Positions 3,192-5,793 of a DNA stretch of 64,000 nucleotides are shown piece after piece. Origin of the DNA: Candidatus Methylopumilus sp. (GTDB lineage Bacteria; Pseudomonadota; Gammaproteobacteria; Burkholderiales; Methylophilaceae); contig JAHEEA010000003.1 of NCBI GenBank assembly GCA_024640945.1, forward strand, positions 1 to 64,000. Direction: 5' to 3'. The notes under the pieces were generated by a model. The model made no database searches and was not told the DNA's origin. It was given only the letters and a program-made list of their open reading frames with translations. Both the position numbers and the translations under genes were made by a program. Position 1 is the stretch's first letter. Every line of letters begins with the position of its first letter.

Positions 3192-4733
3192 CTAAACTTG
3201 CGGATGCGCACGTTCAGATTTAGCTTGGATTTTATTCAAACCATTTAAATACGCTTTAGCTGACGCAATCACGATATCAGTATCAGCGCCTTGACCATTC
3301 ACAATACGACCACCTTTAGATAAACGTACTGTCACTTCACCTTGAGCGTCTGTTCCACTCGTGATGTTGTTCACTGAATATAAAAGTAATTCAGCGCCAC
3401 TATTCACGATTTTTTCAATCGCTTTAAATGCAGCATCTACTGGACCGCCGCCATCTGCCTCAGCACGTTTTTCTGCGCCATTATCAAGCACAGCAACCAC
3501 TGCGTGTGGCGTTTCACCTGTTTGTGAACATACTTGCAAATAAGCCAATTTAAAATACTCAGTGTCATCGCTCACGAATTCATCGCTTACCAATGCTTGA
3601 ATATCTTCATCAAAAATTTCAGATTTTTTATCAGCCAAGGTTTTAAAGCGCGCAAAAGCTGCGTTTAACGCTTCTTCACCATCTAAGGTAATGCCTAATT
3701 CTTCCAAACGTGATCTGAAAGCATTACGGCCAGACAATTTACCTAAAGTTAATTTGTTGGCGTTCCAACCCACATCTTCGGCACGCATAATTTCGTAAGT
3801 TTCACGGAATTTCAATACGCCGTCTTGGTGAATACCACTTTCATGTGCGAAAGCATTTGCACCAACCACTGCTTTGTTAGGCTGAACTGGATAGCCAGTA
3901 ATGGTTGAAACCAATTTTGAAGTCGGCACGATTTGAGTCGTGTCGATAGAAGTGCTTAAGTTAAATACATCTTTACGTGTACGCACTGCCATGACGATTT
4001 CTTCCAAGCTGGCATTACCTGCACGCTCACCCAAGCCATTAATCGTACATTCAACTTGGCGTGCACCGCCCATCACAGCTGCTAATGAGTTAGCTACCGC
4101 CATGCCTAAGTCGTTATGGCAATGTGTTGACCAAACCACTTTGTCTGAATTCTTAACACGCGCAATTAATTGCTGCATACGCTCACCCCAAAGTGCAGGG
4201 ATTGAGTAACCAACAGTATCTGGCACGTTAATAGTTTTAGCGCCCGCTTCAATCACGGCGTCAAACACTTTTACCAAGAAATCCATATCAGAACGCACTG
4301 CATCTTCTGCAGAGAACTCTACGTCATCGGTATATTCCAACGCCCACTTCACGGCCTGAACTGCACGCGCCAACACCTGGTCTGGCGTCATGCGTAATTT
4401 ATTTTCCATGTGTATAGGTGAGGTCGCGATAAAGGTATGAATACGGCCTTTTTTCGCAGGTTTAATCGCTTCACCAGCACGGCGGATATCATTTTCATTA
4501 GCACGCGCTAATGAACAAACCGTTGAATCTTTAATGGCTTCAGCAACCGCGTAAATCGCATCAAAGTCGCCAGGGCTCGCTGCTGCAAAACCAGCTTCAA
4601 TGACGTTCACGCCCAATTTTTCAAGTTGACGTGCGATACGAATTTTTTCTTCTTTAGTCATCGCAGCGCCTGGGCTTTGTTCGCCATCGCGCAATGTTGT
4701 ATCAAATATGATTAATTGATTATTTTGAGTCAT
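3192..4733 (-). CDS. leuA: 2-isopropylmalate synthase
   Basis: [20 protein letters not shown]-terminus, [17 protein letters not shown]-terminal allosteric LeuA domain. Confidence 0.97.
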
Positions 4734-4759: not shown

Positions 4760-4882
4760 GCAGTACCCGTTACGCATTCGTCATAACGGCATGGGCAAAT
4801 CTGTATTGTGGTGTTTGGTATGTGTACTGCCTAAGGCAGTAGTTTTGCTAGGCGTAACAAAGCACCAGCCAAGAGATGGCTG
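4760..4882 (-). promoter_or_regulatory. Structured leuA leader with competing stems
   Basis: Hairpins CAGCCA-TCTCT-TGGCTG (4866-4882), TACTGCC-TTA-GGCAGTA (4825-4841) and CCGTTA..TAACGG (4767-4789); GCAGTAC (4824-4830) can alternatively pair with GTACTGC (4760-4766). Confidence 0.5.
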
Positions 4883-4920
4883 GAATTTGAATGTGCAGAT
4901 GTGTAACTGTTTAATAACAT
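4831..4920 (-). CDS. Candidate leucine-rich leader peptide (MLLNSYTSAHSNSSHLLAGALLRLAKLLP*)
   Basis: 29-codon ORF with 9 Leu codons upstream of leuA on the same strand; an extended -10 (TGA-TATTAT) lies exactly 6 nt upstream of its ATG. Confidence 0.5.
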   Translation of the reverse strand: MLLNSYTSAHSNSSHLLAGALLRLAKLLP

Positions 4921-4926
4921 AACGAA

Positions 4927-4935
4927 ATAATATCA
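4927..4935 (-). promoter_or_regulatory. Candidate extended -10 element (TGATATTAT) of the leuA leader
   Basis: TGn plus a 5/6 match to TATAAT; predicted +1 falls on the A of the Leu-rich ORF ATG; no well-spaced -35 (TTGACT lies 21 bp away). Confidence 0.45.
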
Positions 4936-4965
4936 TGCTTTTTATTAAAGAATAGTCAATTAAAC

Positions 4966-5793
4966 TTATGACTCTGATAAGTTTTGCTTTGATTCTTTTT
5001 GGCCAACTCTCTGCAATATCCACAACACATAGCCTGACAAGGCATAAACAAAAGACACAAAGAATAAGACTTCTGGTGGACTGTAAGACACCAAGACGAT
5101 CGCCAATACAACAAACAAGATAACGATGAATGGCACACTACTTCTTAAGTTAATGTCTTTACCGCTATAAAAACGTAAATCACTGACCATTGATAAACCA
5201 GCGCCAACCGTTAAAGTCCAAGCAATCCATTTCATTTTTAACCAAGGATAAAAGTCTAAATCGCCTGGCAAATCATTATCAAAACAAACCCAAACCAAAC
5301 CAGCTAACAATGCAGCGGCGGCAGGACTAGGCAAGCCTTGGAAATAGCGTTTATCAGCATTACCTGAATTCGTATTAAAACGTGCCAAACGTAAGGCAGC
5401 ACAAGCGCAATAAATAAAGGCAGCAATCCACCCTAATTTACCCATAGGCTTAAGTGCCCAAACATAAAGCACTAAAGATGGCGCAACTCCGAAAGAAACC
5501 ATGTCTGAAAGACTATCAAATTCAGCACCAAATGCACTTTGCGTGTTGGTCATACGGGCAACACGGCCATCCAACCCATCAAGCACCATGGCAATAAAAA
5601 TGGCGACAGCAGCATGTTCATATTTGCCATTCATCGCTTGAACAATGGCATAAAACCCAGCAAACAAAGCTGCTGTGGTAAATAAATTAGGAAGTAAATA
5701 AATCCCACGCTCACGCAAACTAGCTTGTGCAAGAGTGCTTTTACGACGGGTACGAGGTGTAGCTTCAGCCATATTTTCTGCATTTCCAATCAT
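4966..5793 (-). CDS. pssA: CDP-diacylglycerol--serine O-phosphatidyltransferase
   Basis: DGLDGRVARMTNTQSAFGAEFDSLSDMVSFG CDP-alcohol phosphatidyltransferase motif; located upstream of leuA. Confidence 0.95.
   Translation of the reverse strand: MIGNAENMAEATPRTRRKSTLAQASLRERGIYLLPNLFTTAALFAGFYAIVQAMNGKYEHAAVAIFIAMVLDGLDGRVARMTNTQSAFGAEFDSLSDMVSFGVAPSLVLYVWALKPMGKLGWIAAFIYCACAALRLARFNTNSGNADKRYFQGLPSPAAAALLAGLVWVCFDNDLPGDLDFYPWLKMKWIAWTLTVGAGLSMVSDLRFYSGKDINLRSSVPFIVILFVVLAIVLVSYSPPEVLFFVSFVYALSGYVLWILQRVGQKESKQNLSES

Follow-up and report, generated by a model that had tools for sequence, protein, structure and literature searches.

The window, the whole 64,000-nt stretch of DNA analysed here, belongs to a Candidatus Methylopumilus sp. 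genome of 1.55 Mb. On its minus strand, a short leader ORF is flanked by pssA on the 5' side and by leuA, encoding 2-isopropylmalate synthase, on the 3' side, all three in the same orientation. The names of both genes come from sequence recognition, and leuA, which starts 97 nt after the end of the ORF, is the presumed controlled gene. The features of the locus, from 5' to 3', are as follows:

4966..5793, minus strand: pssA
4927..4959, minus strand: predicted promoter of the leader transcript, with a -35 element TTGACT at 4959..4954
4937..4932, minus strand: -10 candidate CATGAT, 16-nt spacer from the -35 element
4932..4927, minus strand: alternative extended -10 candidate TGATATTAT, TATTAT, ending 6 nt before the ATG
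4831..4920, minus strand: leader ORF MLLNSYTSAHSNSSHLLAGALLRLAKLLP and stop, 29 codons, ATG at 4920..4918 and TAG at 4833..4831
4865..4883, minus strand: hairpin SL1, CCAGCCA-TCTCT-TGGCTGG, within the ORF
4825..4841, minus strand: hairpin SL2, TACTGCC-TTA-GGCAGTA, with the stop codon of the ORF in and beside its loop
4797..4824, minus strand: C/A-rich, G-poor sequence following the stop codon, a candidate for the 3' portion of a Rho loading region
4767..4789, minus strand: hairpin SL3, CCGTTATG-ACGAATG-CGTAACGG
4760..4766, minus strand: GTACTGC, which can pair with GCAGTAC (4830..4824) in a 7-bp helix that competes with SL2
3192..4733, minus strand: leuA, start codon at 4733..4731

The original prediction had described this ORF as a leucine-rich candidate attenuator peptide, and a re-reading of 4831..4920 on the minus strand reproduced its sequence, coordinates and leucine counts exactly. 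Leucine accounts for 9 of the 29 residues (positions 2, 3, 16, 17, 21, 22, 24, 27 and 28), 7 of them within the final 14, and the peptide ends in LLRLAKLLP. The leader peptide had no match in Pfam or NCBIfam, and no Rfam family, including Leu_leader (RF00512) and the T-box, matched the window or 32 loci; with no leu-leader match in the three databases, the peptide is indeed unlike E. coli LeuL, as had been proposed. A search for a Leu leader at ilvB or leuC in the window's genome found none.

Conservation within the genus was analyzed in nine genomes, that of the window and eight more. The start, frame and stop of the ORF are at the same place in all nine. The leader is 28 codons long in each of the other eight genomes, and the one additional in-frame codon of the window is the sole indel within the ORF; after the stop, the length is 95, 96, 97 or 110 nt, with shifts of 1, 2 and ∼14 nt. 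Variable columns number 9, 8 and 16 at the successive codon positions, and leucine is retained through differing codons: TTG, TTA, CTA or CTG at codon 21, TTA or CTT at codon 22, and likewise at position 17, with F or S at these positions in single genomes. Loss of the frame or of the Leu codons in close relatives had been named as a check on the prediction; across the genus, the frame and most Leu codons are kept.

For the wider comparison, the regions upstream of leuA were collected from ∼110 genomes belonging to the family and from another 85 within the order. A strict rule, requiring an ORF of 18-62 codons, a -10 box 5-11 nt upstream and LLR, LLP or LxLR near the C terminus, was satisfied by 97 of 194 leuA upstream regions, compared with 1 of 194 reverse strands and 8 of 970 shuffles. 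Together with the frame kept across the genus, this result against the nulls indicates that the leucine-rich ORF upstream of leuA is more than a chance occurrence. Under the strict rule, a leader is present in 26 of the 44 sampled families of the order, and none is detectable in the other 18 or in several genera, a gap that weighs against the explanation favoured below. The rule is conservative, since it rejects most of genus g7, where leaders end in FLR or NLR. Typical leaders across the order end in (A/G)LLLRx(A)R. Related leaders, found in most genera of the family and in many other families, include MFFNRYITLSLPHYGLLLAGLLLRVAR, MHFSRQISLLHSTFSLLAALLLRGAR and MSSICSISLVSRLAGILLAGLLLRLAR, each running to its stop codon, and further endings are LLRASAH and LLR. 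In the aligned order-wide leaders, leucine makes up 37% of the final 14 residues versus 15% elsewhere, and the arginine of the motif L-L-L-R-x-A-R is found in 121 aligned leaders. Leaders L020, L064 and L061 (genera g3 and g22) are extended by LR/LLR repeats, for instance ending in LVRSAQLRSFLLRSALLR, as though a Leu-Arg coding unit had been duplicated.

A scan with the signature CTGCTGCTGCGCNNNGCGCGCTRA, run on one genome per species and blind to leuA, provides further evidence. It returned at least 80 matches, and among the matches listed, 77 of 80 lie no more than 152 nt upstream of a leuA motif. Those listed are mostly labelled as betaproteobacteria, such as Gallionella, Nitrotoga, Nitrosomonas, Ferrovum and Sulfurimicrobium, and the records labelled Methylophilaceae among them are L217, L244 and L247. 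Two of the 80 listed (L216 and L222) lie away from leuA and have no -10 box, and are therefore regarded as chance matches; a third match without a leuA motif (L248) sits near the end of its stored stretch. None of 370 genomes drawn from across the class, almost all belonging to other orders, contained the exact pattern.

Substitution patterns over codons 2-13 point in the same direction in part of the order. The pN/pS ratio is 0.24 in 31 Gallionellaceae-type leaders, versus 1.4 and 1.8 in the other frames, and reaches 0.30 in MFFN-type leaders, 0.14 in one g7 group and 0.78 in g22. The values of 0.24 to 0.30 in two large groups, set against 1.2 to 1.8 in other frames, indicate that the ORF is under coding selection, strong in some lineages. 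The window's own genus, at 0.62, displays no clear coding constraint, which counts against the explanation favoured below. Because selection on the N-terminal peptide is clear in some groups and absent in the window's genus, it is not used as general evidence; C-terminal pN/pS values of loci fetched by pattern were disregarded, since the search pattern fixes those codons.

Both leader and promoter have been lost in L094, L091, L107 and L109 (genera g14 and g16 of the same family, with genomes of 1.0-1.4 Mb). There, pssA stops 25 nt short of the start of leuA, exactly at it, or within a few nt of that point, and as the two genes nearly or actually abut, leuA is probably co-transcribed with pssA. 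Three members of genus g20 without the leader ORF (L082, L087 and L110) have a common GACAAGCG(A/G)GTAAAATT block before leuA, perhaps a different control element.

Analysis of the promoter region adds a feature absent from the original prediction. Among 125 representatives of the order, the spacing from the -35 (TTGC...) to the -10 (TATATT or TATAGT) is exactly 17 nt in 110, the end of the -10 lies 5-11 nt from the ATG (6-7 nt in 81), and the start codon is ATG in 123. The mean anti-Shine-Dalgarno duplex energy is -0.16 kcal/mol before the ORF versus -5.04 kcal/mol at leuA; the Shine-Dalgarno of E. coli leuL reaches -5.6 kcal/mol. The combination of the -10/ATG spacing and the missing Shine-Dalgarno leads to the prediction, with a transcription start that is itself predicted, that the leader ORF is leaderless or nearly so. 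All nine genomes of the genus preserve the -10 box and its distance to the ATG, and with either -10 candidate the predicted 5' UTR in the window is no more than a few nt long. In the window's genus, the -35 and -10 are less cleanly spaced than elsewhere in the order, which also counts against the favoured explanation. A leaderless trpL is described in Sinorhizobium meliloti, where the ORF begins at the first base of the transcript and precedes an amino-acid biosynthesis gene (PMC7298713). That system, from Alphaproteobacteria, is a Trp leader that has a transcription attenuator, and it differs in amino acid, peptide and gene.

The predicted leader RNA contains several conserved elements within and after the ORF. 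SL1 has 98.4% of its cells paired in the genus, with three pairs varying through G-U, and its arms fit each other order-wide (t -2.9). SL2 is invariant in the genus, and other genera place CTGCGC-TAG-GCGCAG at its position. SL3, a covarying hairpin with 98.6% of cells paired in the genus, has arms that match each other far better than cross-species combinations do (t -7.6, order-wide), and SL3 sequences, which start at a median of 30 nt, are unrelated between families. Between SL2 and SL3 lies the C/A-rich stretch, most of it unpaired; for C minus G, the 40 nt after the stop rank within the highest 2.6% of the window. Over 179 leaders of the order, the first 10 nt from the stop have a C fraction of 0.46 and a G fraction of 0.06, the next 10 nt have 0.34 and 0.09, and afterwards G returns to 0.22. 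In 88% of 65 loci, the leader, taken as the ORF plus 30 nt, contains a 78-nt C>G bubble that ranks among the top 5% of that locus; the best such leader windows at the window locus are only in the top 4-6%, weaker than the order. A loose motif resembling AATTCgaG(T/C)AGTACC occurs just 3' of the C-rich stretch in many families (L027, L012, L013, L020 and others).

As judged from sequence, the locus has the general features of an amino-acid leader peptide: a short ORF, rich in codons for the pathway product, conserved in frame and directly upstream of a biosynthetic gene. Amino-acid leader peptides are textbook regulation in enterobacteria, and, going by what is established for leu operons and similar ones, a conserved leader ORF that ends in a Leu run ahead of leuA is a leucine sensor. 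The conserved leader peptide very probably controls leuA, and leucine is, with good confidence, the signal. On balance, we favour a model in which a conserved, translated and predicted-leaderless leader peptide brings about Rho-dependent attenuation of leuA according to leucine supply; the identification of Rho as the terminator is a tentative step, for which we would claim slightly less than an even chance.

The promoter ends just before the ATG, so that in this model translation would begin right at the 5' end of the nascent RNA or a few nt from it. With ample charged Leu-tRNA, the ribosome would complete the leader and depart, the C-rich RNA of the ORF and spacer would be left bare, and Rho could load and halt transcription before or early in leuA. 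When charged Leu-tRNA is scarce, the ribosome would stall at the Leu run and cover much of the Rho-loading region, Rho would be kept off, and RNA polymerase would reach leuA. Since neither a terminator nor an order-wide structural switch was found, as detailed below, the stalled ribosome itself is likely to be the effector; the C-rich, G-poor RNA, the missing terminator and the presence of a rho gene together make Rho-dependent attenuation the most likely route. Three observations count against Rho: the G-poor stretch alone, with its ∼20-28 nt, would make a short Rho site, the 78-nt C>G signal of the window reaches only the top 4-6%, and stalling on the Leu run would leave part of the stretch uncovered by the ribosome.

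A precedent for such an arrangement is tnaC of E. coli, where attenuation is Rho-dependent, the leader ORF is followed directly by the Rho-loading region with no intrinsic terminator at that step, and a stalled ribosome blocks Rho, the arrest at the stop codon responding to free tryptophan. The leaders described here resemble it in their C-rich, G-poor region at and after the ORF and in lacking a detectable intrinsic terminator, with a putative role for Rho. Unlike tnaC, they carry a run of codons that specify the pathway's own end product, which suggests the sensing of starvation. A bolder version, which we consider rather doubtful, holds that an ancient order-wide leaderless leader acts through Rho without an RNA switch, that the nascent (A/G)LLLRxAR helps to arrest the ribosome, with peptide sequence and Leu codon number setting the response, and that a short transcript ending near SL3 may also act in trans as a small leaderless mRNA.

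Stalling might also act without Rho, if the ribosome, perhaps arrested by the nascent LLLR, shielded the transcript from RNase or held the coupling to RNA polymerase. The failure to find either a terminator or a switch would suit such protection, as would the amino-acid-level selection on the peptide N terminus in some groups. However, it would leave unexplained why the C-rich, G-poor stretch starts exactly at the stop, and the window's genus shows no selection on the peptide; we regard such protection as unlikely.

A classical attenuator of the E. coli leuL type, in which the position of the ribosome chooses between an antiterminator and an intrinsic terminator, is also improbable. The layout would permit it: E. 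coli K-12 leuL (b0075; Rfam RF00512) is likewise a leader ORF of 28-29 codons with a Leu run upstream of leuA, and the conserved SL3 hairpin lies between ORF and gene. In the window's genus, the GCAGTAC/GTACTGC helix offers one candidate competing structure, maintained in 96.8% of cells; being nearly invariant, it is weak evidence, and no order-wide counterpart was seen. The terminator scan, which detected the E. coli leuL terminator as a positive control, nevertheless found intrinsic terminator-like sites after the stop in only 14 of 179 leaders (7.4 expected) and none in the window, and with a stricter T-run requirement 1 of 179 (1.1 expected). In a cross-species test with 125 representatives, the ORF had no excess complementarity to the SL3 region, while the E. 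coli control for antiterminator pairing gave z -1.1 to -1.6 in the expected place; antiterminator pairing was accordingly rejected as an order-wide feature. E. coli leuL has a Shine-Dalgarno and an intrinsic terminator before leuA, whereas a leaderless start is predicted for the betaproteobacterial leader, where no intrinsic terminator was found. Since that terminator was tested for and is absent, the leader falls outside the enterobacterial Leu_leader family, even though it appears to work like amino-acid leader-peptide attenuation. The candidate attenuator peptide of the original prediction thus stands as a conserved leader peptide; with no intrinsic terminator and no order-wide competing structure, the term "attenuator" cannot mean the enterobacterial mechanism.

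Translational control, in which a stalled ribosome would refold the RNA and so expose or hide the leuA ribosome-binding site, has a similarly small chance of being correct. It has a precedent in the LEU element of Actinobacteria, in a comparable place, where Leu codons pair with the leuA Shine-Dalgarno in a pseudoknot or hairpin (PMC1262725). That element shares with the present leaders a Leu-run ORF upstream of leuA and no obvious terminator, but its Leu codon/Shine-Dalgarno pairing was tested for in the betaproteobacterial leaders and is absent. Order-wide, the ORF has no excess complementarity to the leuA ribosome site in the cross-species test (t -0.9 and +1.0), nor has the stretch after the stop. 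Similarly, masking a stalled ribosome on the Leu run changed the accessibility of the ribosome site by a mean of 0.000 (sd 0.056), in equilibrium folding that is a weak test of kinetic switches. With no excess pairing and unchanged accessibility, sequestration of the ribosome-binding site was rejected as an order-wide feature. That the region is untranslated, a conserved palindrome acting only as operator or hairpin with the Leu codons as a by-product, is very hard to credit, for although the palindrome TACTGCCTTAGGCAGTA is invariant in the genus, the frame, the stop and the Leu codons persist and indels span whole codons, homologues across the order place other palindrome sequences there, and several groups carry a strong coding signature.

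Rho-dependent attenuation driven by leucine supply thus remains the explanation we favour. A similar layout is described for LeuL of Campylobacter jejuni and other Epsilonproteobacteria, a 28-aa leader upstream of leuABCD with C-terminal Leu codons, whose short RNAs end soon after the stop codon (PMC3847290). The likeness is one of arrangement, C-terminal Leu codons with a leu gene downstream; that LeuL was reported (PMC3847290) as found by a ribosome-binding site, which the betaproteobacterial ORF lacks. The open literature searched contains leu leaders of other groups and no description of a betaproteobacterial leuA leader peptide, although a prior mention is possible in the main proteobacterial attenuator survey (Vitreschak 2004, cited in PMC1262725). 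The arrangement is unannotated and recurs across many betaproteobacterial families.

Betaproteobacteria are a large group that includes nitrifiers, methylotrophs and iron oxidisers. If the model is correct, a single short motif would flag a leucine-responsive switch in many of their species, and leaderless translation would extend to a widely conserved regulatory ORF. The leaders would also form a natural series for testing how stalled ribosomes can govern Rho when no alternative RNA structures take part. The case further illustrates that a leader ORF may be ancient even if it falls under gene-calling cutoffs; the sampled g14 and g16 members, streamlined Methylophilaceae, have lost theirs.
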